The position numbers were made by a program, and so were the translations under genes. Under the pieces are notes generated by a model. The model saw only the letters and a list, made by a program, of their open reading frames with translations. It was not told where the DNA came from and made no database searches. A stretch of 64,000 nt of DNA from Pyropia yezoensis (Eukaryota > Rhodophyta > Bangiophyceae > Bangiales > Bangiaceae): NCBI GenBank assembly GCA_009829735.1, contig CM020620.1, forward strand, positions 14,319,420 to 14,383,419, read 5' to 3'. Below are positions 14,208 to 63,358 of the stretch, in pieces. Position 1 is the stretch's first letter. Every line of letters starts with the position of its first letter.

Positions 14208-14211
14208 TATT

Positions 14212-14226
14212 TGGTGGAGCAGCAGG
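14212..14226 (+). promoter_or_regulatory. Primer-binding site, family B
   Basis: TGGTGGAGCAGCAGG, four bases after the LTR end. The same sequence follows the second copy at 22993-23007, and B3 has it on the minus strand at 41586-41600. Confidence 0.7.
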
Positions 14227-14416
14227 GGATTGGAGTGTTTGAGAAGAGACATTTGGGAGCAGCGGTTGCGTTGTTCCTATTCTGTCTTTTTCTGTGGTTT
14301 GGGAATTATTTGCACCCGTTCACGGGAACCCCATTCCTGGCTCTCCAACCCCTCTCTTGTGGTCTTGCGATCTTTGGACACGCAGGTAACTGGACTGTGG
14401 CTGTCAAGAGACCAAC

Positions 14417-20265: not shown

Positions 20266-20410
20266 GAAGAAGGGAACGGGTATATCAAGGAGAACACGCA
20301 ATACAAGCATGGAACAATCAAGGAAAACAAGCACCCGTTCGAGCAACCCTTCTCTCCGCCTCTTCCCTCCTCGCTTCTCCCAAGACCCTCACCCTCCTTG
20401 CCTCCAACGA

Positions 20411-22173: not shown

Positions 22174-22673
22174 NNNNNNNNNNNNNNNNNNNNNNNNNNN
22201 NNNNNNNNNNNNNNNNNNNNNNNNNNNNNNNNNNNNNNNNNNNNNNNNNNNNNNNNNNNNNNNNNNNNNNNNNNNNNNNNNNNNNNNNNNNNNNNNNNNN
22301 NNNNNNNNNNNNNNNNNNNNNNNNNNNNNNNNNNNNNNNNNNNNNNNNNNNNNNNNNNNNNNNNNNNNNNNNNNNNNNNNNNNNNNNNNNNNNNNNNNNN
22401 NNNNNNNNNNNNNNNNNNNNNNNNNNNNNNNNNNNNNNNNNNNNNNNNNNNNNNNNNNNNNNNNNNNNNNNNNNNNNNNNNNNNNNNNNNNNNNNNNNNN
22501 NNNNNNNNNNNNNNNNNNNNNNNNNNNNNNNNNNNNNNNNNNNNNNNNNNNNNNNNNNNNNNNNNNNNNNNNNNNNNNNNNNNNNNNNNNNNNNNNNNNN
22601 NNNNNNNNNNNNNNNNNNNNNNNNNNNNNNNNNNNNNNNNNNNNNNNNNNNNNNNNNNNNNNNNNNNNNNNNN
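22174..22673. other. Assembly gap, exactly 500 N
   Basis: A run of 500 N, a typical placeholder of unknown true length. If the locus were a genuine tandem with a shared middle LTR, about 790 bp would be missing here: roughly 540 bp of internal sequence and 255 bp of LTR. Confidence 0.98.
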
Positions 22674-22988
22674 CCGACCTGACGAGGTTAGACTCGGGTC
22701 GGGGCCACTCGGGGTTATGGGGGCTACCGGGCCAACGTGCCGGGGTTCCCCCAGATGCACGTTAAGAGGGACAGCGAGGCGCCCTCGGCCCGCGCCCTCA
22801 GGGAAAAAGACAACTGCGCGTTTGCTTTCCTCTTCCCCGTGTGCACTACCGTGCGTATCTGTTTGCCCTGCGAGCAGGCACGTGAGGCAACAGGCATACC
22901 ATTCTCGTAGTTCCCCTTTTTGCGTTACCTGTCCCTTTCCCCCGAGGGATATTGACACGTGTCTGAGAGGATCGAGTTTTATACCACA
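22674..22988 (+). repeat. Partial LTR of family B next to the gap
   Basis: Matches the last 317 bp of the LTR at 13636-14207. A G-run at 22718 has five G instead of seven, a homopolymer difference typical of low-quality contig ends. Confidence 0.85.
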
Positions 22989-23197
22989 TATTTGGTGGAG
23001 CAGCAGGGGATTGGAGTGTTTGAGAAGAGACATTTGGGAGCAGCGGTTGCGTTGTTCCTATTCTGTCTTTTTCTGTGGTTTGGGAATTATTTGCACCCGT
23101 TCACGGGAACCCCATTCCTGGCTCTCCAACCCCTCTCTTGTGGTCTTGCGATCTTTGGACACGCAGGTAACTGGACTGTGGCTGTCAAGAGACCAAC

Positions 23198-27900: not shown

Positions 27901-29046
27901 ACCTCCAGTGGCAACATATACCTGCTCATCATTTGTGACCGGTTCTCCAAGTTCACTCGAGCAATCCCGTTGAGAACCATCACGGCTCTGGATGTCACGT
28001 CGGCCTTCTGCGAGTACTGGATAGCTGCCTACGGCCCTCCAGACTCCGTCTTAACCGACAACGGTCCCCAGTTTGCATCCCTGTTCTTCCAAGGAGTCTG
28101 TGACCTGATGGGCATCAAGAACTTGTACACCACGACGTACCACCCTCAAACGAACGGCCAGGTGGAACGATTCAACCGGACCCTAGTGGACATGCTACGG
28201 CACTACGTGGAGGAGCACCAAGAAGACTGGGACGAGCTCCTGGCTGTCCTCACTCTAGCCTACAACTCCCGAGTTCACCGGACAACGGGAGTCGCTCCAC
28301 TCGACTTTGTCACCCCAAGGCGGCTGACCAACTTCTCCCTGGAAAGAATACCGGATGGTCTCCAGCCTGCACTGAAGTCAGGTCCCAAGGCAAAGGATGA
28401 GTTCCTGGAACAACTAAAGCTCCTGCTCCCAAGAGTCAAGGAGTCAATTTCAAAGATCCAGGAGCGATACAAGCGGGACTATGACAAGGGTGTCCGGGAA
28501 AAGAACAAGGAACTGGGTGGTGGCGACTGGGTTTTTGTGGACAACCATAGCAAGACCCGGGGGAAGCTGGACTCTAAGACGGATGGACCTTATGAGATTC
28601 TCAATACGGATGGCTGGACCTTCCTTCTAGACGTGGATGGCTCTCCGTACCGGGTGAGCAGCGACCATGTCACCCGAGCTCCACCGCCAAGCCAACGGGA
28701 CTTGACCCGGCGTAAGCGGACTGCGATACCCTGGCTATCCCAAGAAGAAGGTCGGGAATTTGTCTACGTCAAGTTTGTCGACCATGCCTGGAGAGATGGA
28801 CGCCTGTACCTGCGAGTACGCTGGTTCGGATTCAACCCGGCAGATGATACCTGGGAACCCTCAAACCGGCTACCCATCGCGGACGTCTGTGCCTACACGC
28901 GACGGAACGGGATTGAGGGCACTCCCGTGGCCAGAGCCGGCAAGATTCTGGAGTCGGACACGGAGGAGGACCAAGAGGACGGGGCCACCCAAGACCCTCG
29001 GGACGAGACGAGCTCACCCGCAACGGATGTGGAACAAGAGGATTGA
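24946..29046 (+). CDS. pol: Pol polyprotein, family B (right copy), with internal UAG
   Basis: Frame, domains and the UAG (25408-25410) match the left copy. Landmarks: protease Asp-Thr-Gly near 25188, Tyr-Leu-Asp-Asp near 26554, integrase Asp near 27874, Asp near 28055 and Glu near 28161, chromodomain about 28760-28890. The C-terminal tail is acidic (Asp-Thr-Glu-Glu-Asp-Gln-Glu-Asp). Its stop at 29046 faces the stop of the antisense ORF at 29192 across 145 bp, so the two genes are convergent. Confidence 0.92.
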
Positions 29047-29191
29047 GAAGAAGGGAACGGGTATATCAAGGAGAACACGCAATACAAGCATGGAACAATC
29101 AAGGAAAACAAGCACCCGTTCGAGCAACCCTTCTCTCCGCCTCTTCCCTCCTCGCTTCTCCCAAGACCCTCACCCTCCTTGCCTCCAACGA

Positions 29192-31309
29192 CTACTCCCG
29201 GCGCGGACGCTGAGCCGCGGGAGTGTCCTCCGGCGCTGCCTCCGCGGTACGACGGGAACCGGAGGAAGACGGGATGACGTAGTGCGGTGGACGCGGTGCA
29301 TCCCGGTATGACGCCATCGGAGTAGTACCAGTAGTTGCCGGTGGCTCCCGCTCATCCAGATATGTCCGTCGGCGCCGCTGGAAGCCCGTGAAGGTCTCTG
29401 ACCACTGCTGGGCCAGGCCATGCCGCGTCAAAGTCGCCAGAAGTTCGCCAACCACCGGGTTGTTCGACATCTGGCCGCTGTCCGCGCAAGCAAACACCCG
29501 GTCGACCACGTCGTTCAAGACGCTGGCGTAAGTACCCAGCACCAGAGAGGACCCGACGCCTTCAACCTGCACCGGAAGACGACCCAGCTGGTCTTCAATC
29601 ATGCCGACGTCGTACTGGTCGCATGTTGGACCACCTTGGTTCAGGTACCAGTCAGGCACCCGGAAGCGGGTAAGGCGCAGAGTCGGCGCCGGATTCTCGA
29701 ACCGGCCCGAGGATGACACTACCGGACGGTCCACAACGGCCCCCGAGACCGGAGTACCCAACTCCAGCGGAGGCACAGCGCCGCCGGCGTTGGAAGAAGG
29801 CGTCCGGGGTAGAGCGACCGGAGTAGTCGGCGACCGCACGGCCACTCCCAGACTCGCCGCAGACAAGCGCGGTGCCGGAGGAGCTTGAAGTACCGGCACA
29901 GCAGGAACAGGGCGCGGACGCGCCGGTGACGGTTCAGGCGAGGCAACCGGGGCGACAGGGGCAACAGGAGGAAGAGGAGCCGCCGCAGACGCCCGACCGA
30001 CCGCCGCGGCCCATGCCGACTCCTGTACCGGCGGCCCAACTGGCAGAAGATCAAGGGCGGCCGGAGCAGGAAAGCTACCTAGCTGCGGCCACGCCGGAAG
30101 CGGCGTCGCCAGCTGCACCTTGGCCGGAGAAGACTGGTAGACCACCTGCGCCCAACCGAAGCCATCCCGACGCGGGCGGTTCTGGTCGGCAATCGCGTTC
30201 AAGGAGTTCCGGTCATGCACCGGCACCAGACGCCGGAAGTCAATCATCGCCTGGAAGAGCTCCTTGTACTCCTCGTCCTCGCTGCACAGGAAGTCGACGG
30301 TCAACTTGTCGACAATCCAGACCATCAGGAGGTCAGGGAGAAACCAAAGCCGGTTGGACACCAAGACCTCATGAAGCCAGTGGTTGGCCGCCAAGACTGT
30401 CATCTCGGACGTGTACATCATGTACGGGATTGAGTGGAAGAAGCCCTTGATTGACGCCTGAGTCAAGGCGTCCAAGAAGTACCAGGTGCAAGGGATGCTG
30501 GAAGGAGCAAACCCGACCGGGATCTCGACTTCCTGCTGCTGCGGGATGACCTTGGGGTAGTATGCCGCCCGGTTAGCCTTGTCCAGCTTCCAGAACTCCT
30601 GGTGGTTGCAGCTTACAAGGAAGTCACGCTGACGCCCGCGTCGCTCACCCTGCTCCCGTGCCGGCGACAACTTGGAGTATTTCCGGGTCAAGAAAGGCGG
30701 CTCCAGAGCGACCATGCTCGGACGGGGGTCGCAGTTCAAGCTTCCCGACCCCTTGAGCGCCTCGTCCCAGACCTTGAGCGCCCGGTGGACGTACCCTTCC
30801 TCCTCCGGCCACCGGAGAACGGACGCGGACACGCGACGCTCGGTCAAGGGTAGATCCAGTACCGGTGCGAAGGGGAGATCCTCCAGACGAGCAACCCAAG
30901 AGGAACCCGAGAAGCTCTGGGAGCGGTCTTGTGCCAGGCGCATCTGGTCCGCCGTGTGAAGACGTGCCTTGTCCATCTCGGTCAAGACCCCGCGCTGGAG
31001 TTCCTTGCGCCAGAGGTCCATGCAATCCTGCTGGCACTGGGCCGCGCCGGCGTTGCCGACCACCGTGGAGTAACGCCGGGCCGCCAGAGGGTCCTGCCCA
31101 AGGAGCATCTCCGGGAGACCCTCCGGGGGGGCCTCGACCGGGTGCATCGCGGAAGCCGGGGGAACTCGATCCGTCCCCGCCGTGGCGACCGGCGCCGGCA
31201 CCGACATCCGAGGAACCGGAGGCAGGAGAGGGGCACGACTACCCGAGTTCTCCTCCGCAACACTCGCCGCCGGAACCACGGGCCCAGCTTGGATCTCGGA
31301 ACTGGACAT
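29192..31309 (-). CDS. Antisense accessory protein, family B (intact, 705 residues)
   Basis: A complete frame opposite to gag-pol, between pol and the 3' LTR, from the ATG at 31309. Residues 1-160 are Pro/Ala/Ser-rich. About 160-400 looks folded, Trp/Tyr/Phe-rich and helical, with a Pro-Cys-x2-Tyr-Phe motif near 273, Arg-Leu-x2-Leu-Pro near 320 and Val-His-Asp near 364. About 400-540 is a Pro/Ala/Val linker. About 545-650 is a second folded segment with Val-Val-Asp-Arg near 602 and Trp-Ser-Glu near 637, and the tail is Pro/Arg-rich. No signal peptide, membrane segment, zinc knuckle or known catalytic motif is evident. The same gene occurs in B3 with colinear length (2118 bp). Function unknown; a structural or antisense-regulatory role is only a guess. 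Confidence 0.85.
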   Translation of the reverse strand: MSSSEIQAGPVVPAASVAEENSGSRAPLLPPVPRMSVPAPVATAGTDRVPPASAMHPVEAPPEGLPEMLLGQDPLAARRYSTVVGNAGAAQCQQDCMDLWRKELQRGVLTEMDKARLHTADQMRLAQDRSQSFSGSSWVARLEDLPFAPVLDLPLTERRVSASVLRWPEEEGYVHRALKVWDEALKGSGSLNCDPRPSMVALEPPFLTRKYSKLSPAREQGERRGRQRDFLVSCNHQEFWKLDKANRAAYYPKVIPQQQEVEIPVGFAPSSIPCTWYFLDALTQASIKGFFHSIPYMMYTSEMTVLAANHWLHEVLVSNRLWFLPDLLMVWIVDKLTVDFLCSEDEEYKELFQAMIDFRRLVPVHDRNSLNAIADQNRPRRDGFGWAQVVYQSSPAKVQLATPLPAWPQLGSFPAPAALDLLPVGPPVQESAWAAAVGRASAAAPLPPVAPVAPVASPEPSPARPRPVPAVPVLQAPPAPRLSAASLGVAVRSPTTPVALPRTPSSNAGGAVPPLELGTPVSGAVVDRPVVSSSGRFENPAPTLRLTRFRVPDWYLNQGGPTCDQYDVGMIEDQLGRLPVQVEGVGSSLVLGTYASVLNDVVDRVFACADSGQMSNNPVVGELLATLTRHGLAQQWSETFTGFQRRRRTYLDEREPPATTGTTPMASYRDAPRPPHYVIPSSSGSRRTAEAAPEDTPAAQRPRRE

Positions 31310-31480
31310 CCCGTCCAGACTCCGGGGAACGAGAGGGCCAAGGTGAAGGAGCGGAGGGGGGGGGCAGGATCGGGGCAGGTGATCGTGACCGGGTGAAGAC
31401 GCTCGACCTCGGCACCGGTGTGGACGTGCTCGAGGCTGTGCACGGTGGCACCTGGTTCGGCCCGAGGACGTGCCGGACTA

Positions 31481-31492
31481 GGGAGGGAGCTA
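31481..31492 (+). promoter_or_regulatory. Polypurine tract, family B
   Basis: GGGAGGGAGCTA directly before the 3' LTR, the expected plus-strand primer for reverse transcription. Confidence 0.65.
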
Positions 31493-32064
31493 TGTAGCAT
31501 CCCTGGCCCCGACTTGGCGCCGACCCGGGACTGCAACCAGAGGGCACCAGGTGCCAGAACACGCCCGCCGTGTGGCGATGGTTGGCGGCCGTGGCCCGTG
31601 CCCGGCACTGGGATGCGGTGGACTACGCTATCCACACGCGAGAGAGGGATTTCTGATGTGTTTTTGCATATTTGTGAGGGACTTGATTTGAGAGAATTTG
31701 AGTGTGAGATTAGTGAGTGGGAATAGAATTAGTAGTGATAGTGGCCCCCGACCTGACGAGGTTAGACTCGGGTCGGGGCCACTCGGGGTTATGGGGGGGC
31801 TACCGGGCCAACGTGCCGGGGTTCCCCCAGATGCACGTTAAGAGGGACAGCGAGGCGCCCTCGGCCCGCGCCCTCAGGGAAAAAGACAACTGCGCGTTTG
31901 CTTTCCTCTTCCCCGTGTGCACTACCGTGCGTATCTGTTTGCCCTGCGAGCAGGCACGTGAGGCAACAGGCATACCATTCTCGTAGTTCCCCTTTCTGCG
32001 TTACCTGTCCCTTTCCCCCGAGGGATATTGACACGTGTCTGAGAGGATCGAGTTTTATACCACA
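31493..32064 (+). repeat. 3' LTR of family B locus
   Basis: 572 bp, TGTAGCATCC to TATACCACA, followed by GCTCC at 32065-32069, which matches the flank of the left LTR. Confidence 0.92.
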
Positions 32065-33704: not shown

Positions 33705-35822
33705 ATGTCCAGTTCCGAGATCCAAGCTGGGCCCGTGGTTCCGGCGGCGAGTGTTGCGGAGGAGAACTCGGGTAGTCGCGCCCCTCTCCTGCCTCCGGTT
33801 CCTCGGGTGTCGATGTCGGCGCCGGTCGCCACGGCGGGGACGGATCGGGTTCCCCCGGCTTCTGTGATGCACCCGGTCGAGACCCCCCCGGAGGGTCTCC
33901 CGGAGATGCTTCTTGGGCAGGACCCTCTGGCGGCCCGGCGTTACTCCACGGTGGTCGGCAACGCAGGCGCGGCCCAGTGCCAGCAGGATTGCTTGGAACT
34001 CTGGCGCAAGGAACTCCAGCGCGGGGTCTTGACAGAGATGGATAAGGCTCGTCTTCACACGGCGGACCAGATGCGCCTGGCACAAGACCGCTCCCAGAGC
34101 TTCTCGGGTTCCTCCGGGGTTGCTCGTCTGGAGGATCTCCCCTTCGCGCTGGTGCTGGATCTGCCCTTGACCGAGCGTCGCGTGTCCGCGTCCGTTCTCC
34201 GGTGGCCGGAGGAGGAAGGGTACGTCCACCGGGCGCTCAAGGTCTGGGACGAGGCGCTCAAGGGGTCGGGGAGCCTGAACTGCGACCCCCGTCCGAGCAT
34301 GGTCGCTCTGGAGCCGCCTTTCCTGACCCGGAAGTACTCCAAGTTGTCACCGGCACGGGAGCAAGGCGAGCGACGCGGCCGCCAGCGTGACTTCCTCGTG
34401 AGCTGCAACCATCAGGAGTTCTGGAAGCTGGATAAGGCTAACCGGGCGGCGCACTACCCCAAGGTCATCCCGCAGCAGCACGAAGTCGAGATCCCGGTCG
34501 GGTTTGCTCCTTCCAGCATCCCCTTCACCTGGTACTTCCTGGACGCCTTGACTCAGGCGTCGATCAAGGGCTTCTTCCACTCGATCCCGTACATGATGTA
34601 CACGTCCGAGATGACAGTCTTGGCGGCCAACCACTGGCTTCACGAGGTCTTGGTGTCCAACCGGCTTTGGTTTCTCCCTGACCTCCTGATGGTCTGGATT
34701 GTCGACAAGTTGACCGTGGACTTCCTGTGCAGCCAGGACGAAGAGTACTAGGGGCTCTTCCAGGCGATGATTGACTTCCGGCGTCTGGTGCCGGTGCATG
34801 ACCGGAACTCCTTGAACGCGATTGCCGACCAGAACCGCCCGCGTCGGGATGGCTTCGGTTGGGCGCAGGTGGTCTACCAGTCTTCTCCGGCCAAGGTGCA
34901 GCTGGCGACGCCGCTTCCGGCGTGGCCGCAGCTAGGTAGCTTTCCTGCCCCGGCCGCCCTTGATCTTCTGCCAGTTGGGCCGCCGGTGCAGGAGTCGGCA
35001 TGGGCCGCGGCGGTCGGTCAGGCGTCTGCGGCGGCTCCGCTTCCTCCTGTTGCACCTGTCGCCCCGGTGGCCTCGCCGGAACGGTCGCCGGCGCGTTCAC
35101 GCCCTGTTCCGGCTGTGCCGGTACTTCAAGCTCCTCCGGCACCGCGCTTGTCTGCGGCGAGTCTGGGGGTGACCGTGCGGTCGCCTACCACTCCGGCCGC
35201 TCCGCCTCGGACGCCTTCTTCCAACGCCGGCGGCGCTGTGCCTCCGCTGGAGTTGGGTACTCCGGTTTCGGGGGCCGTTGTGGACCGTCCGGTGGTGTCA
35301 TCCTCGGGACGGTTCGAGATTCCGGCGCCCACTCTGCGCCTTACCCGCTTCCGGGTGCCTGACTGGTACCTGATCCAAGGTGGTCCGACATGCGACCAGT
35401 AGGACGTCGGTATGATTGAAGACCAGCTGGGTCGTCTTCCGGTGCAGGTTGAAGGCGTTGGGTCCTCCCTGGTGCTGGGTACTTACGCCAGCGTCTTGAA
35501 CGACGTGGTCGACCGGGTGTTTGCTTGCGCGGACAGCGGCCAGATGTCGAACAGCCCGGTGGTTGGCGATCTTCTGGCGACCTTGACGCGGCATGGCTTG
35601 GCCCAGCAGTGGTCAGAAACCTTCACTGGCTTCCAGGGGCGCCGACGGGCATGTCTGGATGAGCGGGAGCCCCCGGCAACTACCGGTACTACTCCGATGG
35701 CGTCATACCGGGATGCACCGCGTCCACCGCACTACGTCATCCCGTCTTCCTCCGGTTCCCGTCGTGCCGCGGAGGCAGCGCTGGAGGACACTCCCGCGGC
35801 TCAGCGTCCGCGCCGGGAGTAG
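33705..35822 (+). pseudogene. Antisense accessory protein, B3 copy (two premature TAG)
   Basis: Colinear with the intact 705-residue frame, same length and no indels in frame, but TAG replaces a Lys codon at 34749-34751 and a Tyr codon at 35400-35402. Everything else is well kept. It confirms that the gene is a regular part of family B and not a chance open frame of one copy. Confidence 0.85.
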
Positions 35823-50473: not shown

Positions 50474-51421
50474 CCGCCCTCGACGCCGAGCCGCTGGTGG
50501 CGGCACTGCTGGTGGCGGTGGGGCGGGCGGTGCTGGCGCGGCCCGCCGAGCCGGCGGTGCTCCCCCCCCCCCCCAGCCGACGATCCTCCTCCCCCCCCGG
50601 CACCAGCAGGGGCCGGCGACAGTAACGATGGCGCAGGCAACAGCCACAACGGCCGCAGGGGCGGTGGAGGGGGCGGTGGTGGCGGCGGGGGCGGCGGCGG
50701 GGGCGGCGGCGGTGGCGGCGGTGGCGGCGAAGTCGGCGATTTTGCCGCTGAAGTAGGCGTCTCCGACGACGACGACGAGGACGAGACCGACGACGATTGG
50801 GAGCCAGCCGGCTCGGGCCGGACACCCTACCGCAGCCCCTTTGACCCACGTGAGGTGAACCGCGTACGGCAGGAGCGCCCGGTCATCCGCGGCTTCTACT
50901 TGCCGCCCGAGGGCAGTCCAAGGCTCGCTTTCCCAGCGCCGTTTCAAGTTGTCGGCGACACGCGCTACGCACGAGTACAAGGCAAGGTGGGCGGTAAGGC
51001 AGCGCAAGACCTCGAGGTCGTCTACAACATCTGCGCGTTGGTCCAGCATCTGCACAACCGGGCTTTGGCGCGCGAGGCGGACAAGGAGGCCGCGGGCAAG
51101 CGAGTCTCGGCGTCTGATCAGGACAGTCGCCTGGCGCTGCACCAACTGTTCACCCTCACCAGCGCACGATACAAAGTGATCGAGCTCGCCACCCACGACG
51201 GTCCGGCGTCCGAGACGCTGCGGTCCATCATCTTTGACGACACGGACGCGGGAGTCTACTGCCGAGCCTCGGACTTCCTGCAAGAGGCCCAGACTGAGAG
51301 CTTTGTCAAGGTCGCGGCGCGCCGCCATGGCGAGCGGCACGCCGCTGGGATCCGCGGCGACGCGACCAACCCCAAGGCTGCCAAGCCCGGCGCAGGGGGG
51401 CGTCCCAAACGGGGCGCCTAA
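50474..51421 (+). CDS. DIRS-like element ORF1 (Gag-like), start uncertain
   Basis: The frame is open from a TGA at 50471-50473 to the stop at 51421. It begins with Gly-rich triplet DNA, then an acidic block (Asp/Glu-rich near 50763-50800), then a helical region of about 190 residues (50855-51421). There is no ATG in this frame. An ATG at 50439 lies in a different frame that joins the GGC repeat, so an indel in the repeat is possible. It overlaps the next ORF out of frame, a common DIRS arrangement. No zinc knuckle is seen. The assignment rests mainly on position. Confidence 0.5.
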   Translation, partial: PPSTPSRWWRHCWWRWGGRCWRGPPSRRCSPPPPADDPPPPPAPAGAGDSNDGAGNSHNGRRGGGGGGGGGGGGGGGGGGGGGGGEVGDFAAEVGVSDDDDEDETDDDWEPAGSGRTPYRSPFDPREVNRVRQERPVIRGFYLPPEGSPRLAFPAPFQVVGDTRYARVQGKVGGKAAQDLEVVYNICALVQHLHNRALAREADKEAAGKRVSASDQDSRLALHQLFTLTSARYKVIELATHDGPASETLRSIIFDDTDAGVYCRASDFLQEAQTESFVKVAARRHGERHAAGIRGDATNPKAAKPGAGGRPKRGA

Positions 51422-52748
51422 GCCGCGCCGAGGCAAGGCGTTGCCGACCCCTCGCTCTATTCGGGGGTCGGGCTCGCCCCCTCGCGTGCCGGGGGGCGAT
51501 GCCGCGAACAAGGCACGCAAACGCCGACGCCGCCCATCCCAGAGGCAGCGTCGGCGCGAGGACCGCTTGGCGGAGGAGGACTCGGCAGCGGCGGCTGCCT
51601 CGCCCTTCGACTCCTTGCGGCTCTCGGCCGCCGCGTGGGCGGCGCTGGGAGTGACCCACTGGGTGCTTCGCACGATCCTTTTTGGACTGCGCCTTCCCTG
51701 GGTCACGACACCGCCGCCCACGAGGTCAAAAGGCTACCCGCTCCCCGCCGCCGAGCAGGCATGGTGCTCCGTCAAGGTAGGACGCTGGGTGGCGGCCGGT
51801 TATGTCAGACGGCTGGGCACCGCGGCGGGTGCCGGGTCGCTCTGGGTGTCCCCCACCTTCGTTGTCCACGGTGCCAAGGACAGGATGGTCGTGGACCGAA
51901 TCAACCAGTTCATCGCGCCGCGGCTCTTCCGCTATCAGCGGCTGTCGCACTTCGCGTCCACCCTCTTCCCAGACGAGCACCTAGTGTCATGGGACGTCCG
52001 CGATGCGTTTTACCACGTCCGGATTTGGCCGGCGGACCGGATGTTCTTCCGGTTTATCGTCGGGGGGGTGGTGTACGAGCCGCGCGTGCTGCCGTTTTGC
52101 ATGAAGCTGTCGTCTTGGGCGTGGACAAAGGTGATGAGGCCGGTGGTTGCGGCGCTGCGGCTGAAAGGCTACATCGTCATGGCTTACGTCGACGACTTTG
52201 CGGCGACGGGCTGCGGCGCCCGCCCTTCCTCCGCGGCCTCCGCCACGGCGGGGCGCTCGGCTATCCTCACGCTCTTCCACAAGCTGGGTATCCACGTGCA
52301 CCCCACCAAGGGCGTGGCGTGTGGCACACAGCGACTCCCCCTGTTGGGGCTTCAGGTGGACACGCGCAGGCGCCTTCTGCTCCTCCCGCGCGAGCGCCTG
52401 GACAAGGTCATCGGCCAAGCCAAGATGCTGCTGTCGGCCGCCAGCGCACGCAGCCGCAAGGTGCCCGCCCGGGCGCTTTCTCGCTTTACCGGGACGGCCG
52501 TCTCGTGCGCGTTGGCGATGCCATCGGCACGGTACTACCTGCACCGACTGTACGACGCCCAAGGCAAGAAGGCAGGCACAACTCGTTTGGCGCACGGAGC
52601 AGTCACGGACCTGCTCTGGTTCTCCCACTTGAAGACCAACGACGGCGTCGGACGCGCTCTTTGGGAGTCCACATTGGGCGACGTAACAACGGACGCCTCG
52701 CCCTGGGGGTGGGGTGGCCACTGGGGCGACACACTGCCAGCGGCGGGC
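51327..52748 (+). pseudogene. DIRS-like reverse transcriptase and start of RNase H, disrupted by A2
   Basis: Plus-strand ORF; the first ATG is at 51327, overlapping ORF1. A basic N-terminus is followed by a reverse transcriptase typical of the DIRS group: Val-Val-Asp-Arg-Ile near 51890, Trp-Asp-Val-Arg-Asp-Ala-Phe-Tyr near 51990, Tyr-Val-Asp-Asp near 52185 and Leu-Leu-Gly-Leu-Gln-Val near 52340. RNase H begins with Thr-Asp-Ala-Ser near 52690, and the ORF is cut by A2 at 52749. Removing A2 and one CGGGC joins this frame exactly to 63364. No integrase or chromodomain is present. The tyrosine recombinase expected in DIRS elements would lie right of the window. Confidence 0.85.
52744..52748. repeat. 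Target-site duplication of A2, left copy (CGGGC)
   Basis: CGGGC precedes the left LTR and is repeated at 63359-63363. Confidence 0.92.
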
Positions 52749-53111
52749 TGTAGCACAATAGGGATCCGTCGCACGTCCACGCTCAGGGAACACTCACCAA
52801 GGGGGATCGGCACCAACGTCACCGGGAGGCCAAGGTTGCTGTCCTTGGAGCGCAAGCCACGGGACCAAGCTGGGAGCCCAAATGGGAGGGGTTTGTTGTT
52901 CTACCTTGGCCGGCGGTGGATTCGCCGCCGGCTCCCACGTTATAAACCCTCGGAGACACTACTAACTACCCTCCACCCCAAGATGCAAGTCCCTCTGGTC
53001 ATACGTAACTTAAAGATACCGTGACCAGTACGAACTATCAAATTGAAAGTTAAGGGTTAGAAGTAGCCCCCCTAACATTAGGGTTACAATACGGCCAACC
53101 ATATTGCTACA
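52749..53111 (-). repeat. 3' LTR of A2
   Basis: 363 bp, TGTAGCA to TGCTACA as written. In element orientation it has TATA box TTTATAAC (complement of 52941-52948) followed by a GGCGG/CCGCC hairpin. Confidence 0.95.
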
Positions 53112-53701: not shown

Positions 53702-55932
53702 ATGTCGGACCCCCAGGTACCCGGGGGCGAGGACGACCTCCTGCCTGAGGAGGGGGAAGAGGTGATGGTGGACGACGTTCCCGTCTCCGCCACCGCCGCC
53801 GAGTGCTTCCTAGCGAGCTCGTCGGAGGACGAGGACGACCGGGTGACCGTTCGTGTGGCCCCGGACGGCGCGCCGGGCGGGTTGTCGTTCGTGTATAGCG
53901 GCACGACGGCTCCGTCGGGTGGCGGACAACCGCGTGCAGCGGTGGCTTCTACCGCTTCTCCTCCGGCGGCCCGGATGGCTTCTGTCGCCGGTACCGGCGT
54001 GGCGTTACCTCAAGACGTTGTCGCCGGCGTGGCGGATGGTGGTGTTGGCCCCCCGTCCAGTCCGGCGGGTCAAGATGGGTCTACACCGATGGCAGTGGAC
54101 TCCGGTAGTTACTCCGGGCGGGCGCCCGCCCTTCTTCTTTCTCCTCGGCCGCGTGCGACTCCGGCGCCGGCCCCTCTTCCGGTGGGGCATCCCCCGGCGC
54201 CCCCTATTCTTCCTGGTCCTGCCCGGGTTGCCCCGTTGGGTGGCGGCGTCGCCGTGGCGGCGGGTCAACCCGCCATGTCGATGTTCGACTTGGTGGCTCG
54301 GGTTCGAGGCCTGACTGTGCAAGAGTCAATGGAGTCCGATGGGCGGATGCGGGTGGACTTCCACCTGCCCCATCCCCGTGGAGAGTTCTCCCGGCGCGTT
54401 AAGGTGGACCCGAGTTGGGAGCGGGAGTTGGTGCGGCTGGTCAACCAGCCGAACGCGGTGCGAGTGGAACACCATTGGATCCTGAGTCAGCCGGATGACC
54501 GGCATGCGCAGCTTTGGCGCACCCGGGTGGGACGGGTGAGGTCTACCTCGACCCCAACTTCGGGGTCTGCGACCTGATTGCTCCCACGTTGCCGCGGGAG
54601 GTTGACTACCCGGCTAGTGCTCGGGGGATTGCGGCGGCGGCGGCGCCGGTTGCGTTCGGGGAGACGGTGGGCGATACCGGTCGGTATCCCGACTTTGAAT
54701 ACTACCCGGGGGTACCCCCGTATCTGTCGTTGGCTGCTCCCTACCCGCCTATGGCGGGTTTGAAGTCGGCGTCGAGCTGGCGACGTAACCATGGTGTCAT
54801 GGCGGATGCGTTCCGCACCGATATAACGTGTGCGTTGCAGACCGGCAACGGTCGTGCGCCTGTATACACTCCCGTGCGCCCGCCTCTGTGGCAGGAGGGG
54901 TGGGAACCCGCCCCTGCTTTCCGGTTTGACACCGGCCCTTGTCTCCGATACTTCGGGAGTGTGTTGGCCTCCCGGCCGGTCCACCCGTTGCAGGGTACCT
55001 TTACCCTTGAGGTTACCCTCGGGCAGGCTTCCTCCTTCCTGCTGTCCGTCCGTCGGCAGGGGCGCCTGTTCCATCTTCCGACAGGTGTCCGTCGGCACAT
55101 CGCGCAGTTGGGCGTGGACCTGATCGCTGCCCAAGCCGGGTTGGCCCGGGAGATCGAAGCCCTGCTGGCTGTTCACGATGCCGTGAACTGGGTTGGGGTT
55201 TTGGCCCTTCCCCCGTACCGGGACCCGCAGGCTGGGGCTACCCCCTTGCCTCGTCACTCGTTGCGTATCCGGCGTACCCAGCCGGGTGAGCCTAGTTGCC
55301 ATGGGTGGGCGTCCACCGAGGCCGTTCCTGACCTGGGTATTCCCATGGTTATCCATGACCCTCTTCAGGTCCTTGCCCCGTGGTTCGGTAACCCGATACC
55401 GGCGGCGGTTGGCCGTCGTCCCCGAGAGTGGGGCTCTGCGGGTGGGGAGCGTGAGGTGTCCCGTCGTCGGGCGGAGCCCCGGCGGGGTTACGGTGGAGCC
55501 CCTTTGGTAGGGTCCTACCGAGCCTGGTATCAGGTGCCACCGGCTCCGGTGGTAGCCGTGTCGGCTCCTCTGGCTCCTCTGGCTGCGCCAGTGTCCGCTC
55601 CCGCCCCTGTCATACAAGACGGGGGTCCCCGTCTCTGGTATGAGGGCGTTGACGCCCTTGTTGCCCGCGCAATGCGGGAGGGTCTCTCTGTTAGCTGGGG
55701 GGGTATCCCCCCAGGTGCTGCGCTGGTTGGGTCCGCGCGTTGCTTCGGTGGCGTGCTTGACCGCCTCCAGAAAGCTCTGGAGGACGTGGAGGCTGGCCGC
55801 AGCACCCTCGTCCAGCTATGCACCGAGGTAACTTGGGTGATCGACCGTCGTGACATTGCCGACCGGTGGAGCACGGAGGTATACGCGCTTACGCGTGAGT
55901 GGCCTCCCTCGGGCAGTGGGTCCACCCACTGA
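53702..55932 (+). CDS. Antisense accessory protein, family A (one frameshift at 54514-54577)
   Basis: The ATG at 53702 opens a frame to 54577; a second frame, shifted by one, runs from before 54514 to TGA at 55932. Joined they give about 740 residues. The N-terminus is very acidic (Glu-Asp-Asp-Leu-Leu-Pro-Glu-Glu; Ser-Glu-Asp-Glu-Asp-Asp). A Pro/Ala/Val linker follows, then a folded part. Motifs shared in order with the family B antisense protein: Pro-Cys-x2-Tyr-Phe near 54940, Arg-Leu-x2-Leu-Pro near 55064, Val-His-Asp near 55167, Val-Leu-Asp-Arg near 55755 and Arg-Trp-Ser-Thr-Glu near 55864. The overlap holds no canonical slippery heptamer, so a single-base indel is the likelier cause. It converges on pol. 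Function unknown. Confidence 0.75.
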
Positions 55933-56411: not shown

Positions 56412-59400
56412 TTACAGTAGGCGTCGTCGCCTCATGTAAGGCATGAGTAGTTGGCGGGGTATTTTCGCCGCCTGTTCCCAGGTGGGTGAGTCGTGTCCGA
56501 CCCACATAACCTTGACGTACCAGGGTCCTGGTAGGTCCGGGTCGGTGTGTCCGACCACGCTCTCTACTTGGTATGGGATCCCATCCGGTCCCACCGGGTC
56601 ATCTGACTGGTGGGTTGTAAGAGCTTCATGTAGCAACCCAGCCGGTACCGGCTGAGGCTGTTTCGGCTTCGGAGCAGGTGTGACATCATTCACACTGATG
56701 CGTTGGATCTCCGTATCGGAGTGTAAGATAACAGAGTGGTCATCTCTGTGGAGAATCTGGTACGGTCCCTTGACCGGTTGCATGAGCTTATTGCCCCGGA
56801 ACTTCTGGTGTCTGATGTAGACCCAGTCACCTGTTATCAGGGTAGCGTTGCGCACCCGTAGTCGGGCGTCAAAGTTCTTCTTATATCGAAGTTGTGTTCT
56901 GTCAAGGGCACCCTTGAGCTTAGGAATCATCCACGATAGCTTGGCCAACCAAGCTAGGTGGATACGTTCGGCCGGTCGGCCTTTCGGTGTATCATACCGA
57001 GTGCACCTGCCTGGTTGCAGCGTCAGGTTACCGACGCCTAGTGGCATGACCCACTCCAGCGGAGCGATGTTTGTGCTCCGATGTGGCCTGGCATTGTATG
57101 CCAGGGTGAGTACGGACAGAAGCCTGTCCCAAGTGTTCGTGTGCTCGGCCACGTAGCACTGTAGCATCTTAACGATGGTGCGGTTGAACCGCTCCACCTG
57201 CCCGTTGGTTTGCGGGTGGTAGTCGGATGCCCGACGTGGTTCGATACCGAACATGCCCAGGACCTTAGTGCAGAATGCTGACGTAAGGTTGGCTCCGTTG
57301 TCGGAGAGGAGTTGCTTCATGACTCCGTATGCACTGACCCAGTGGTCAACCACTGCGTTCATGATGGTGTATGCCGGATCATTCGGGATGGCTGCCGCTC
57401 GTGACAGCTTAGTGAAGCGGTCAGACATGACCAGGATGTACCTGTTCCCTTCTTCCGTTACCGGAAGTGGCCCGAGTATGTCGATAGCGACTTGCTCGTT
57501 GGGCCCATCGGGTGGGAATAGCTTCATGGCAGACGCCTGTTTATGTAGACTCATGCGGTTACGTGCACAGGGGTGGCATCCCCTTACGTGGTCGACCACG
57601 TCGACGGCCATTGCTGGCCAGTAGAAGAACCTTCGCATTGCTGCGAGCATACGTGATCCCCCCGGGTGACCGGCTGTAGGGTTCTCGTGTTCTCGTTCCA
57701 TGACGGCTTGCCGTAAGGACACGGGAACCACGACTTGATGTCGTCCATCGGCGGGTGCCCGCCGGTATATGAGTCCGTCTTCATTCTCCGAGAAGATGCC
57801 GGCCGCGCCGGCCAGGAGGTTAGCGCGATGGCGTCTACAGTCGTCGTCATTGGCTTGTGCCTCGCGGAAGTCCGCTAGGGTCAGTGGGCATGCTCGGTGT
57901 GCCATGGTATGGTCAACCATACCTTGGGTAGCGTTACCCACCATGCAGACCGGTACCACCGGGATGTCCTCGTCCACCGAGCGGGTATCTCCGCTCGGGG
58001 TGTCGAGTCGAGACAATGCGTCTCCGAGATGGTGGGTTGACCCAGCCTTATACACGGTACGGTAGTCGTGCTCGGCCATTTTTAGCCTCCATCGGGCTAG
58101 CCTCCCATGGCTATCGGAATCCTTGTCACCAAGGTTGAGGAGCCATCGTAGGGGTTCGTGGTCGGACCTCACGATGAACCTGGAGCCCTCCAGGTATGGA
58201 CGGAGCAGTTGCACTGCCCATATAACTCCGAGGCATTCACGCTCGGTGGCACTATAGTTACGCTCAGCCGGGTTGAGTGTCCGGCTGAAGTATCCTACCG
58301 GACGTAGGTCCGGGATAACGTTGTCGGTACCGATCAACGTCTCCCCCTGTAACAGGGTGCATCCCACTTGTGTATCGCATGCATCGACATCGATGACGAA
58401 GGTACCCCGTCTGTGCGGTAACGCAAGGACGGGTGGGGATAGTAGGGCTCGCTTCAGCGACTCGAATGCCTCCTCTTCGCTAGGCGAAGGGGGTTGGAGT
58501 ACCTTGGGCAGGGTACTGCTTGTAAGAACCGTTAACGGTTTAGCTATCCGAGCGAAGTCCTTGACGAACCGTCGGTATACATTGCACATTCCCAGGAAGC
58601 TCTTCAGCTGCGTCTGGGTGTTAGGGAACCGAGCATCCCGGAGTGCCCGGGTATTGGCTTCGAGTACCCCTAGTTTACCAGGGGTTATCTGGTGGCCCAG
58701 ATACTCGACCGTCTGTTGGAAGAAGGCGCACTTCTTCAGACGCAGGGTTACCCCGGCGTTCCTCAAGAGGGTGAGTACCTCGTCAACATGTTGCACATGG
58801 TCATCCATGTTACGCGAGAAGACGATGACGTCATCGAGGTGCACTAGGCAGTCACGCCACTTCACCCCCGACAGTATGATGTCGATAGCCCGCTGGAATG
58901 TAGCGGGGGCGTTGGACAATCCGAAGGGCATCCTTAGGAACTCGTACACTCCACTGTGACAGACGAATGCCGTCTTGGGGATATCCTCGTCCGCCACCGG
59001 GATCTGCCAGTATCCGGCATTGCAGTCGATGGTGGTAAACACCGTAGCTTCCCCCAGGGAGTCGATGCATTCATCCATCCTTGGTGAAGGGTATGAGTCC
59101 TTCTTGGTAACCAAGTTGAGGCGTCGATAATCGATGCAAAACCGAGGGGTTTGATCCTTCTTCGGTACAATAACGACTGGGGCACCCCACTCCGACATCG
59201 AAGGTCGGATCACCTTAGCTTCACTCATCCGCTTCACTTCTCCATCAACGATCTCTCGTTGCATAGGTCCCGCTCGGTGCGGTTGTGACCGGGCGGGGCG
59301 TGCGCCTGGTACCAGGTCAATACGATGTTGGGTTGCCCCAATGGTACCCAAGGCCCCGCCTGTCCACATGACGTCATGCTTTCTTAGCATCCGTCGTACC

Positions 59401-60599
59401 CCTTCGGCTACGGAAGGGGGAAGGTGGTTGAGGTCAGCCTCGGCCAGTGCCTTCAATGCTTCTTGGTCCTTCGGCGGAATATCCGCCGGTAATGATGGTC
59501 GACTAGGCTTCCCGTCATCGGGTTGCTGTCGCTCGGTGGTCTCGGCGACCGCCAGCACCTCAAGTGGGTCCACTTGACCTTCCTTGTCAGGGGTAAGGAT
59601 ATCTCCTTCGTAGAGCTCGGCAATCCCGAGGATAGTTCCCTTCGGGAGGGTGACTGCCTTACGGCGATAGTTCGCCATCACTAGGAGGGACGACCCTCCT
59701 GATGGGAGGTCTATGAGACCGTTGGCCATGGTCAACCCATGGCGCTTGTACCTCCGCAAGATGGACTTGACTCTGCAGATGCCTGCGAGGTCACAGTTAA
59801 CCGGGAGGACTGTCTCCGACAACGGCTCCAAGCGAGTTCGCTTGGCCAACCGAAGTGTCTTCGGCTCGACACTTGCGTTCACCTCAGCCACGTTAACGTG
59901 GCTCCCTTGTAGCGTCAGGTCCCTGACGATAGCCGTATGTCCTCGCTTCGTCCCGTCGGCTTCTTGAAGCTCGACGGTCCTCCGGCCTGGCCGGATTGCA
60001 TCAACGTGAACGTTGAAGAAGGTGCACCCCAGTATGCAGGGCACCGATAGGGTCTCACACACCAGGAAGTCGACTTCCGTGGTGAGTTCCCCGATGGTCA
60101 CCCGCAGCGACATCGCTGCGGTCGTACGAATGAGGCGACCATTCGCGTCCTTGATGGTGGGTCCCCGAGTCACTCTGACTCGCGGAAGCCACTTGTCCGG
60201 GAGGGTATCCTTCCGGATAAGGTTGGGTCCAGCCCCTGTATCCAGTACAGGGTAGTACGATCGTGTCGACTGGGGGTCAACCCCCAGTGTGGCTGATACC
60301 TTGAAGTTCTCCAAGGCAAACAGCACGTGGCCTACACCGATATCCGGTGTAGCTCGGGCATCCTGAACAGGACCCTTGTCTGGTTCCATGTGACGGGTCT
60401 TCCCGTCCTCTCCTCCCAACCTTGGAGGTTGGTCATCAATCCCCTGACGCCGTGTCGTCGGGGCCGGAAGGTGTACCCGGGGGTTGATGCGGCGTCGGCT
60501 CAACCGCGCTCTCCGTGGGGCTTTCCCCGCGGTACTCCGGGGTGGCTTGCTTGGGTTACCCCAGCGACCCCCGGTAATCCTTCCTCTTACTCGTTTCCC
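56412..60599 (-). CDS. pol: Pol polyprotein, family A (A2): protease-RT-RNase H-integrase-chromodomain
   Basis: Open in the -1 frame from the heptamer to TAA at 56412, with no internal stop. Residues counted from the Leu codon at 60503: protease Asp-Thr-Gly-Ala-Gly near 88; reverse transcriptase about 400-580 with His-Leu-Asp-Asp near 557 (family B has Tyr-Leu-Asp-Asp); RNase H with Asp-Val-Asp-Ala near 704, Ser-Asp-His near 778 and Leu-Gly-Asp-Ala near 831; integrase His/Cys zinc region about 940-980, Asp near 1009, Asp near 1068 and Glu near 1104; a chromodomain-like C-terminus about 1314-1360. No ATG precedes the protease. It copies the RNA in particles and integrates the DNA; the chromodomain probably guides site choice. 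Looks functional. Confidence 0.95.
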   Translation of the reverse strand, partial: GKRVRGRITGGRWGNPSKPPRSTAGKAPRRARLSRRRINPRVHLPAPTTRRQGIDDQPPRLGGEDGKTRHMEPDKGPVQDARATPDIGVGHVLFALENFKVSATLGVDPQSTRSYYPVLDTGAGPNLIRKDTLPDKWLPRVRVTRGPTIKDANGRLIRTTAAMSLRVTIGELTTEVDFLVCETLSVPCILGCTFFNVHVDAIRPGRRTVELQEADGTKRGHTAIVRDLTLQGSHVNVAEVNASVEPKTLRLAKRTRLEPLSETVLPVNCDLAGICRVKSILRRYKRHGLTMANGLIDLPSGGSSLLVMANYRRKAVTLPKGTILGIAELYEGDILTPDKEGQVDPLEVLAVAETTERQQPDDGKPSRPSLPADIPPKDQEALKALAEADLNHLPPSVAEGVRRMLRKHDVMWTGGALGTIGATQHRIDLVPGARPARSQPHRAGPMQREIVDGEVKRMSEAKVIRPSMSEWGAPVVIVPKKDQTPRFCIDYRRLNLVTKKDSYPSPRMDECIDSLGEATVFTTIDCNAGYWQIPVADEDIPKTAFVCHSGVYEFLRMPFGLSNAPATFQRAIDIILSGVKWRDCLVHLDDVIVFSRNMDDHVQHVDEVLTLLRNAGVTLRLKKCAFFQQTVEYLGHQITPGKLGVLEANTRALRDARFPNTQTQLKSFLGMCNVYRRFVKDFARIAKPLTVLTSSTLPKVLQPPSPSEEEAFESLKRALLSPPVLALPHRRGTFVIDVDACDTQVGCTLLQGETLIGTDNVIPDLRPVGYFSRTLNPAERNYSATERECLGVIWAVQLLRPYLEGSRFIVRSDHEPLRWLLNLGDKDSDSHGRLARWRLKMAEHDYRTVYKAGSTHHLGDALSRLDTPSGDTRSVDEDIPVVPVCMVGNATQGMVDHTMAHRACPLTLADFREAQANDDDCRRHRANLLAGAAGIFSENEDGLIYRRAPADGRHQVVVPVSLRQAVMEREHENPTAGHPGGSRMLAAMRRFFYWPAMAVDVVDHVRGCHPCARNRMSLHKQASAMKLFPPDGPNEQVAIDILGPLPVTEEGNRYILVMSDRFTKLSRAAAIPNDPAYTIMNAVVDHWVSAYGVMKQLLSDNGANLTSAFCTKVLGMFGIEPRRASDYHPQTNGQVERFNRTIVKMLQCYVAEHTNTWDRLLSVLTLAYNARPHRSTNIAPLEWVMPLGVGNLTLQPGRCTRYDTPKGRPAERIHLAWLAKLSWMIPKLKGALDRTQLRYKKNFDARLRVRNATLITGDWVYIRHQKFRGNKLMQPVKGPYQILHRDDHSVILHSDTEIQRISVNDVTPAPKPKQPQPVPAGLLHEALTTHQSDDPVGPDGIPYQVESVVGHTDPDLPGPWYVKVMWVGHDSPTWEQAAKIPRQLLMPYMRRRRLL

Positions 60600-62770
60600 G
60601 CCCTTGGTAGGGTGCTGTCCGCCGGGACATCCGGCTGAGGAGGTGCCTCCTCGACGGCCAGAGCTCCACCTGGAGCTGGCTGCCTACCCGGTGCGGGTCC
60701 GGGTGCTCTGGCGGGATACCCCCCTGTGGATGCCTTGCGTTGCGCCGCTGCCCTCCGAGACTCCTCGGGGATAAGTGGGCAGGAAGACACCCAGTGCTGG
60801 GGATCCCCGCACAACATACATCCGGACGTGCCGGTCCCTCCTTGAGTTCGCATCGGGGTAGCCCCGTAGCTGCGGTTGCCTCCCTCGGGCGCCCGAGTGC
60901 CTGCTCCCTGGTAGGCCTTGGGTCCTTGGGTCAACCTGAACATGGACTCCCCCAACCGGTTGGATCGGCCCGCAATCTGCGGAGGTGCCTCCGTACGTAC
61001 TGCCCATGTAGGCAGGGGCTGGCGGGGGTTACCCGTAACCGGGGCATACCCCGTAGTCCGCACATACGGGACGTGCCGTCCCGCTCCCTCGTTGACCTGG
61101 AACTGGGTCCCAGCCGGGGCGATGTACGCTACCGTACCGTGCTCATCAATCACCGGCGTCGCCGGTAGCAACAGGTGGCCCTGTTGGTCAACAAGAGGTT
61201 CATCATCGCCCGTAGGGGTATGTTCGGTCGCCACCAGTACTGGTGCGGCCTTACGTTCCACCTTCTCTTGCCTCGGTACCGGGGTAAGATTGAGCTTGCT
61301 CCCCTCACCCTTGGGCTTTGAGGCCAAGGCACACTCCGGGTGTAGAACCCGGTAGGCGTCCCCTAGGGACTTGCACATATGCATCAGTCGACTGAAGTTG
61401 GTCCGTGCCGTATTGGCTCCCCGTGCGGATATCCGCACGTAGTTGGGTACTCCTGCGAACAGGATGGCCCGTAGTTCCCCTTCACCGAGGAGCTTCCACA
61501 GCTCGTAGTCGAGCTGTTGGATCCGGCGTCCAAACATCTCCTCATCCTCCCAGCTCTGGGCGGTGTCAGTGCGCAGGGCCCGGTAGTGGTCCTCGCACTT
61601 GTCCTCACTGAGGTAACTGCTCAGCAGCTCCTTGAGGATCCCACGGTAATCCATGGGGGTGGCCGCGACCCTCATTCCCGGCATCGGGGATGCCTGGCGA
61701 AGGATGCCTCGCACCCGTTCATCAACAAAGAACGGGAGGATCTCCAGGGCCAGCCCCTCGTTAACGAGGGCCTTGTCCGCGGCTGCCTTGAAGCTAGTCA
61801 AGAAGCCGATGACTGCCAACGGGCGTCCGTTCGGCCCTCCGAACATAGGGACTCCCTTCATAAGGGTCTGCATAGAGCGAATCGCTCGGTGCGACATATT
61901 ACGCATCGATTCCGATACGGTGGTAGATCGGTCCTCCAAACGATAACGTTCGGGAGTCAGGACCGACCTGAAGACTTCGTTGACGATCTCCGTGTCAGCG
62001 TCCTGGATATCCAGTCGCTTAGCCAGTTGATGAGCAAACTCATCGGACTCCATCCGCTTCAGTAGGCTCGCAGTTACCTGCGCGGTCATAGCTTCCACCA
62101 CTGAAGATGGTACTTCAGGCGTCGGCACTTCGGGAACCCGAGTTGCCTGGCCTCCTTCGTCGTGGGGATACTGTGAGAGGGGACCCCCTCCGCCAATAAC
62201 CGACTCTCCACCGGCGTAAGTATCCGCCGGGTCGTGTCCACGGAGTCCGCTTCGGGTGCTCCGAGCGTATCGCTCCGTGTGACTCCGTTCCAACTCTGCC
62301 GACGAGTCGGATCCATACCCCATTGTGTCCGGGGGTTGTCCAGGAGTAGCAACACCGGGGTTGACCCTGGTGGACTCCGAAAGTAGTCCGGCCGGTTCGA
62401 ACCGTACCGGTGTGGGAGGAACACGTCGGGGTCCCGTCGTGTGGCGTGTTGACATCAACACTGCCATTGCGTCCTCCGTCCGATCTTGACGGGCGTCGAG
62501 TCCGGAGAGCCGGGCCTCGATGCGGGCCAATGATGTCATCAGGGAATCCCCTGGTGAAGGAGGCGGCGGAGTGAGGTCGGTCGACGACAGTTGAGGCGGG
62601 CCCCCGCCTCCCGCCGTCCGAGCCGTGCCAAACGTCGATCCGGCACCTGAGAGCATTGGCGTCTCAATGTTGTCGATCGGGTTCCCGATCTCGGTTCCCG
62701 TAGTCACCTCCGGGGTCGGCGTCGACGCCGATCCGTCATCTTGAACGTTCCCCGTCTCTTGGGTAGACAT
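60587..62770 (-). CDS. gag: Gag polyprotein, family A (A2)
   Basis: 727 residues from the ATG at 62770. Same layout as A1: disordered N-terminus, capsid-like helical domain, CCHC zinc knuckle near 60775-60820, Pro/Ala-rich tail. It ends Gly-Asn-Glu-TAA with the intact heptamer. The 5' leader between LTR and gag is about 220 bp (62771-62995). Confidence 0.93.
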   Translation of the reverse strand: MSTQETGNVQDDGSASTPTPEVTTGTEIGNPIDNIETPMLSGAGSTFGTARTAGGGGPPQLSSTDLTPPPPSPGDSLMTSLARIEARLSGLDARQDRTEDAMAVLMSTRHTTGPRRVPPTPVRFEPAGLLSESTRVNPGVATPGQPPDTMGYGSDSSAELERSHTERYARSTRSGLRGHDPADTYAGGESVIGGGGPLSQYPHDEGGQATRVPEVPTPEVPSSVVEAMTAQVTASLLKRMESDEFAHQLAKRLDIQDADTEIVNEVFRSVLTPERYRLEDRSTTVSESMRNMSHRAIRSMQTLMKGVPMFGGPNGRPLAVIGFLTSFKAAADKALVNEGLALEILPFFVDERVRGILRQASPMPGMRVAATPMDYRGILKELLSSYLSEDKCEDHYRALRTDTAQSWEDEEMFGRRIQQLDYELWKLLGEGELRAILFAGVPNYVRISARGANTARTNFSRLMHMCKSLGDAYRVLHPECALASKPKGEGSKLNLTPVPRQEKVERKAAPVLVATEHTPTGDDEPLVDQQGHLLLPATPVIDEHGTVAYIAPAGTQFQVNEGAGRHVPYVRTTGYAPVTGNPRQPLPTWAVRTEAPPQIAGRSNRLGESMFRLTQGPKAYQGAGTRAPEGGNRSYGATPMRTQGGTGTSGCMLCGDPQHWVSSCPLIPEESRRAAAQRKASTGGYPARAPGPAPGRQPAPGGALAVEEAPPQPDVPADSTLPRAGNE
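60593..60599 (-). promoter_or_regulatory. -1 ribosomal frameshift site GGGAAAC (family A gag-pol)
   Basis: G-GGA-AAC in the gag frame, then GAG and TAA. Pol is open in the -1 frame across it. The same heptamer and the same distance to the stop occur in family B. Confidence 0.75.
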
Positions 62771-62979
62771 AGTCACAATCAGTCAACCGACGTAACAATC
62801 ACCACGAATAAGAGAGCGAGGGGGTAGATTGGGGAGAGTAACAGTAGATCACAGTCAAAGGTAAAAACTCAACACAATCGATCAGGTCGCAACACCACGA
62901 GTACAAGAAAAGGACCGGATCCCTATCCGTGTGCCAGGGCCGAAGACGGCGTCACCACAAGGGTGACGGAAACCCGTCC

Positions 62980-62995: not shown

Positions 62996-63358
62996 TGTAG
63001 CACAATAGGGATCCGTCGCACGTCCACTCTCAGGGAACACTCACCAAGGGGGATCGGCACCAACGTCACCGGGAGGCCAAGGTTGCTGTCCTTGGAGCGC
63101 AAGCCACGGGACCAAGATGGGAGCCCAAATGGGAGGGGTTCGTTGTTCTACCTTGGCCGGCGGTGGATTCGCCGCCGGCTCCCACGTTATAAACCCTCGG
63201 AGACACTACTAACTACCCTCCACCCCAAGATGCAAGTCCCTCTGGTCATACGTAACTTATAGATACCGTGACCAGTACGAACTATCAAATTGAAAGTTAA
63301 GGGTTAGAAGTAGCCCCCCTAACATTAGGGTTACAATACGGCCAACCATATTGCTACA
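62996..63358 (-). repeat. 5' LTR of A2
   Basis: 363 bp. It drives gag-pol toward lower coordinates. TATA box TTTATAAC is the complement of 63188-63195. Confidence 0.95.

Follow-up and report, generated by a model that had tools for sequence, protein, structure and literature searches.

The window, by which we mean the whole stretch of 64,000 nucleotides analysed here (G000:C3:14319420-14383419), was examined together with the 107.5 Mb genome of 11 contigs from which it comes; the three contigs that appear in our locus list (C1-C3) are 29-44 Mb long. The window carries LTR retrotransposons of two families, A and B, and in each of them the region between pol and the 3′ LTR holds an antisense accessory gene (aORF), encoded on the other strand from gag-pol (Table 1). 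This is the position and strand that an initial annotation of the window had given it in both families. The family B copy at 29192-31309 is open over 705 codons, as annotated, but the family A copy is not a single frame. Paired LTRs and the order protease-RT-RNase H-integrase place both families among the Ty3/gypsy elements, with the protease match below the cut-off in A and unlisted in B. The LTR pairs of the two families are 98.8-99.7% identical.

Table 1. Features of the family A and family B elements, with positions in the window (aORF, antisense accessory gene)
Feature	Position	Strand	Remarks
Family B gag	23198-24958	+	sub-threshold CCHC knuckle
Family B pol	25459-29046	+	sub-threshold chromodomain
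Family B aORF	29192-31309	-	intact, 705 aa; between pol and 3′ LTR
Family B 3′ LTR	31493-32064	+	99.7% to 13636-14207; leader of ~183 bp before aORF start
Family B aORF, inverted copy	33705-35822	+	same gene; 2 internal stops
Family B aORF, first copy	20414-22173	-	frame-broken; abuts 500-N gap 22174-22673
Family A aORF	53702-55932	+	opposite to gag-pol; frame broken between ~54514 and 54577
Family A aORF, open 3′ piece	54514-55932	+	472 aa; holds conserved core and C-terminal region
Family A gag-pol	62776-56412	-	strand opposite to aORF
Family A pol	56412-60503	-	protease-like, RT, RNase H, integrase; protease match 25.4 bits, cut-off 28.2
Family A gag	60587-62776	-	upstream of pol; 26% identical to family B gag (245 residues)
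Family A 3′ LTR	52749-53111	-	98.9% to 62996-63358; leader of ~590 bp before aORF start
Family A 5′ LTR	62996-63358	-	pairs with 52749-53111

The inverted B copy is the same gene, as the initial annotation had it, but is no longer open, and the first B copy was absent from that annotation's list. The first and second B elements (13636-32064) stand in tandem with a common middle LTR, their gag and pol proteins are 100% identical, and the 500-N gap lies between the tandem's two ends; the arrangement may reflect either a real tandem or a duplication made in assembly. At the left edge of the window (2-280) lies a gag fragment, 35% identical to the B gag, that comes from another element, and the flank beyond it led to a third family, C. 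A candidate tRNA-Leu (AAG) was called at 51385-51475 by ARAGORN under the bacterial code.

The antisense gene across the genome

Of thousands of candidate places in the genome, those with the highest scores contain a stop-free match to the A gene in 83 of 90 cases and to the B gene in 62 of 63. This choice favours intact copies; neither of the broken B copies of the window figures among the 63 places for B. In family A, 73 of the 90 scored places are stop-free with 777 or more open codons (825 or 909 as a rule), and the copy at locus L010 encodes 789 aa counted from the first methionine. The region in which the window's own A copy breaks frame is covered by the Logan protein P0004. When the distant relative P0013 is used as the B query, 68 of 77 scored places are stop-free. 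Family C provides 147 scored places, with at least 700 open codons in 99 of them and 724 in 88; a short form of 256-262 open codons, found at 15 of the 147, is perhaps a subfamily that has lost the conserved core. At all 28 loci compared (10 A and 18 B, including the window's own), pol lies on the strand opposite to the antisense gene, with the 3′ ends of the two facing each other. We note that family A seemingly comprises at least two subfamilies, whose accessory proteins differ at their N-termini (L062 and L064).

Protein searches returned ten relatives of the A protein (P0003-P0012), five of them named Pyropia vietnamensis (43-62% identity, 346-661 aa; best E value 7.7e-135), whereas for the B protein they returned only the near-identical P0002 and P0013, at 42%. 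No relative of the antisense protein was found in scans of viral contigs, bacterial and archaeal genome contigs and phage records. Because half of the A relatives carry the P. vietnamensis name, the host is taken to be a bangiophyte, Pyropia-like red alga, and the species is probably Neopyropia yezoensis. A published account of the P. yezoensis genome assigns nearly half of it to predicted repeats, with LTR elements foremost (PMC7423979).

Selection on the antisense frame

The initial annotation had named a dN/dS near 1 across copies, together with a lack of antisense transcripts, as an outcome that would count against its reading; the ratios lie at 0.11-0.33. Between the second B copy and the inverted copy of the window, dN/dS in the antisense frame is 0.167 (bootstrap 95% interval 0.10-0.26), next to 0.226 for gag and 0.10 and 0.17 for pol in the same pair, and the third positions of the antisense frame hold 61 of the 92 differences. 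The other two frames of the aORF strand give 1.8 and 2.6, and the three frames of the opposite strand 1.2, 0.22 and 2.7; the frame at 0.22 is wobble-aligned with the antisense frame and contains 11-12 stops in those B loci for which stops were listed.

Across genome copies of family B, dN/dS is 0.109 for 8 of the 63 scored places (L001-L008, L001 being the window's intact copy), with pairs up to 0.28. The corresponding set for family A, 9 of the 90 scored places (L010-L018, with the single stop in L011 skipped and L009, the broken window copy, left out), gives 0.325, and single pairs range over 0.22-0.95; the constraint on A is thus looser, or noisier, than that on B. Two opposite-strand frames in A show 0.45 (with 12-13 stops) and 0.82 (with 1-4 stops), and the remaining frames 0.99-2.4. 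The antisense protein is under purifying selection in A and in B, the two families measured.

A common core, bridged by family C

The A and B proteins had been proposed to be homologous from short anchors that recur in order, and comparison of their profiles supports homology, convincingly only by way of family C. Compared directly, the open A piece and B score 76, against a mean of 47 and a maximum of 68 in 300 shuffles and 68 for the reversed B sequence. When only the cores are compared, the pair L010-L001 reaches 66, with shuffles up to 47; other A-B pairs are weaker, many of them at chance, and seven of seven pairs between A and the distant B relative P0013 are out of LP register. The N-terminal A piece resembles B at the level of composition only (score 69, shuffles up to 78, reversed B 104). 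The profile-to-profile check suggested in the initial annotation does find similarity, weakly in the direct comparison and strongly via C: five direct hhalign runs return P values of 0.0079, 0.057 (distant B relative added), 0.0096 (full length), 0.068 (core) and 0.072, and for the core run at 0.068, 8 of 200 column permutations are equally good. The direct comparisons alone would thus be a weak basis, insufficient to claim A-B homology.

Family C adjoins the window on its left (L029), and its pol is 40% identical to that of A and 47% to that of B. Downstream of this pol, and antisense to it, only 258 codons of the accessory gene are open (L029:3788-4561), whereas another C copy has an aORF of 724 codons (L074:83-2257); beside a further C copy, L075, pol again lies on the strand opposite to the antisense gene. 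The C core scores 139 with the A protein of L010, 106 with P0005 of P. vietnamensis, 152 with P0013 and 95 with the B protein of L001. For six A and three B sequences set against C, the scores are 68-152, shuffle means are 30-39 and shuffle maxima 48-64, and none of 500 shuffles reaches the score of the real pair in any of the nine comparisons. Decoys, in the form of 28 overlapping slices of gag and pol, score no higher than 47. By hhalign, the A-C comparison has a P value of 3.2e-7 (probability 93%) and the B-C comparison one of 6.2e-10 (97%). When C joins one side of the A-B comparison, no column permutation exceeds 24.9 where the real score is 65.2, or 22.8 where it is 53.6 (0 of 100 in each case), a signal that is carried there by C.

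The residues of the C core aligned by A are 34-258, and those aligned by B are 63-253. Since A and B each align to C over the same collinear core, they are homologous there by transitivity: in all three proteins, as bridged by a single full-length C sequence, some 190 residues form a homologous core.

The anchors fare unevenly as markers of this homology. In counts that accept a match at any position in 20 A, 12 B and 1 C sequences, of which some are partial, RLxxLP (A 18/20, B 11/12, C 0/1) and VHD (A 17/20, B 9/12, C 0/1) are frequent in the A and B cores but not fixed, whereas PCxxYF (2/20, 5/12, 0/1), V[LV]DR (9/20, 10/12, 0/1) and [RQ]WS[TE] (8/20, 9/12, 0/1) are not conserved. PCxxYF, RLxxLP and VHD all sit in the core, and none of the three occurs literally in C. 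In addition, PP[YF]L, which had not been listed before, is found in half of the A sequences (10/20, a set with several partial ones), 12 of 12 B sequences and the C sequence (1/1). The two C-terminal anchors, V[LV]DR and [RQ]WS[TE], had been read as part of the homology. Both are missing from the P. vietnamensis relatives, and C-terminal alignments of four A sequences with B are equalled by 5, 274, 27 and 473 of 500 shuffles, that is, two are at chance and two borderline, with all four at chance against C. Homology of the C-terminal regions of the A, B and C proteins is not supported by these shuffle tests.

Pol relationships and origin of the gene

The label of chromovirus, given earlier to A and B, fits them weakly. 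The Pfam Chromo match in B reaches 20.8 of the 25.1 bits that the cut-off requires and is unlisted in A at E 1, and the tails of the A, B and C pols look chromo-like by eye. An unrooted tree built on the final 480-620 residues or so of pol, with long branches (0.98 for A), separates the A pol, the B pol and two C pols at 100/100 support from nine canonical chromovirus loci of the same genome; the nine are those with a long open pol frame among 30 fetched chromodomain loci, and the shorter second C pol of L029 was left out.

These canonical chromoviruses (30 loci; clusters L032, L034, L041 and L048) are like A, B and C in having a Ty3/gypsy integrase and in belonging to the same algal genome; the chromodomain that they carry is a putative feature in A, B and C. 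They differ from them in that no consistent long antisense frame lies within 1.5 kb after the chromodomain, the longest being under 230 codons at 27 of the 30 loci; a survey of this span would miss a short or distant gene, and it gives 339 codons in A, 450 in B and 258 in C at L029. The longer antisense stretches beyond canonical pol are 387 codons at L052 (L052:1992-3152, chromodomain-oriented), 275 at L050 and 261 at L060, the last of which is among the nine loci of the tree. We infer a single acquisition of the gene by the ancestor of the A/B/C pol clade, followed by inheritance along with the element; one gain in that ancestor is the simplest reading.

Protein features and possible role

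Sequence searches of Pfam, NCBIfam and the PDB gave nothing above the cut-off. The weak matches below it are scattered: DUF6214 on the A piece (E 0.051), ASTN_2_hairpin on P0013 (0.0085) and Rieske on B (0.14), as well as a bacterial-type P450 on the joint profile (E 0.023). AlphaFold2 models have a mean pLDDT of 32 for A (11 sequences) and 30 for B (3 sequences), and the helices they predict are of very low confidence. No transmembrane segment is present (the maximum 19-residue Kyte-Doolittle mean is 1.54), and no CxxC motif occurs in the accessory proteins examined. The N-terminus of A is acidic (16 of the first 50 residues); stretches rich in proline, alanine and glycine are found in A, B and C; and arginine runs comprise one of four in B (RRRR) and one of five in C. 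The C protein (L074:83-2257) ends in a basic, RS-rich tail, which we take to resemble the tails of splicing factors. This set of features (the acidic A N-terminus, the P/A/G-rich stretches, RRRR in B and the RS tail in C, with neither a transmembrane segment nor CxxC) appears compatible with a nuclear role.

In the mechanism that we propose, the antisense gene would be read from an antisense promoter of its own, situated in the leader or the 3′ LTR. Its product would be a soluble protein that works in the nucleus, in trans, on the nucleic acid or chromatin of the element itself. Such a protein might regulate sense expression or help in the nuclear phase, as has been proposed for Grande gene23, Retand TRP28 and HTLV HBZ. 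Drawn as it is by analogy, the mechanism as a whole, promoter and trans-acting protein together, is tentative and should be considered doubtful.

Accessory proteins of mobile elements can counter host silencing, and VANC is an anti-silencing factor of this kind in some plant DNA transposons. The algal protein might likewise counter silencing by its host, and its retention in high-copy families with LTR pairs as similar as those described above would agree with this, but no domain match rises above the cut-off, and we regard the idea as unlikely. Alternatively, the antisense strand could encode an extra structural or movement protein, capsid-like or envelope-like. The position after pol is that of env, and the predicted core is mostly helical in the very low-confidence models; against this, Env-like genes are in sense orientation and encode a transmembrane segment, whereas the algal gene is antisense and its product lacks both that segment and CxxC, and the pairwise decoys made from gag slices show no similarity, so that a structural role is rather improbable.

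A different question is whether A, B and C took up related genes independently, for instance by separate captures from one host gene family, or whether the core reflects convergence. Direct A-B similarity at the edge of noise and C-terminal regions without a match are what independent uptake would lead one to expect; however, the stretch of C matched by A and the one matched by B are the same, collinear core, the gene has the same place and orientation in all three, and the A/B/C pols group against families in which the gene is not visible within 1.5 kb, which makes independent uptake or convergence improbable. That the antisense frames are a by-product of GC-rich DNA, encoding no protein and perhaps giving an antisense RNA that regulates the element, is very improbable in view of the low dN/dS and third-position excess in that frame, the conservation in the five P. 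vietnamensis proteins and the lack of stops at most scored places, even though the window is rich in open frames of 150-400 codons without evident function and regulatory antisense RNAs are described in other elements (PMC7264820).

In sum, a bangiophyte red alga has at least three Ty3/gypsy families, deeply diverged from one another, that carry an antisense accessory gene converging on pol and placed between it and the 3′ LTR. The best explanation, to which we assign a probability of roughly 80%, is that of one gene family in A, B and C, with selection in A and B, a homologous core and a single gain; the nuclear regulator proposed as its product is, as said, much less likely.

Relation to known antisense genes

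Antisense accessory genes of LTR elements in flowering plants have been described since the 1990s, with their function given as unknown in the account of PMC7264820. In the plant Tat/Retand lineage of Ty3/gypsy elements (Grande gene23, RIRE2, Retand ORF4; TRP28 domain, PF04195), such a gene is described between pol and the 3′ LTR, in most copies and across diverged families (PMC7264820, PMC11963269). By that description, the algal gene is alike in its antisense orientation, its location, its sharing across diverged families and its presence in most copies, whereas the host is a red alga instead of a plant, and the protein is a different one. PF04195 (TRP28/Transposase_28) is unlisted at E 1 for the A, B and C proteins, and a scan of the whole genome yields no candidate at E 10; the algal proteins would therefore be a protein family separate from TRP28, as far as these scans reach.

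Outside plants, the fungal retrotransposon Boty (Botrytis, Sclerotinia) is named as carrying an antisense ORF (PMC7264820). There, too, the antisense gene is known from the slot that separates pol from the 3′ LTR, and it is by this ORF, as described, that Boty can be likened to the algal elements. HBZ/APH-2 of HTLV-type retroviruses is likewise described as an antisense gene at the 3′ end that encodes a nuclear regulator (PMC11963269, PMC7264820). The algal gene, known from sequence alone, resembles HBZ in its antisense 3′-end location, and no bZIP is listed for its proteins in the Pfam scans. Our literature search, which mostly did not extend to subscription journals, found no description of such a gene in red algae.

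It is possible, if short of probable, that one ancestral antisense gene was kept in place while several red-algal Ty3/gypsy lineages diverged (to pol identities as low as about 40%), independently of plant TRP28 and of deltaretrovirus HBZ. If so, an antisense nuclear regulator next to the 3′ LTR would be a solution that LTR elements have reached repeatedly, with unrelated proteins. A separate, selected red-algal protein family, carried by at least three diverged families whose largely open copies number at least in the tens, argues for an antisense slot that serves a need of the element. In addition, a single genome here offers a comparative set, with families A, B and C carrying the gene and chromovirus loci in which none is visible, and the function of the gene would be testable there.
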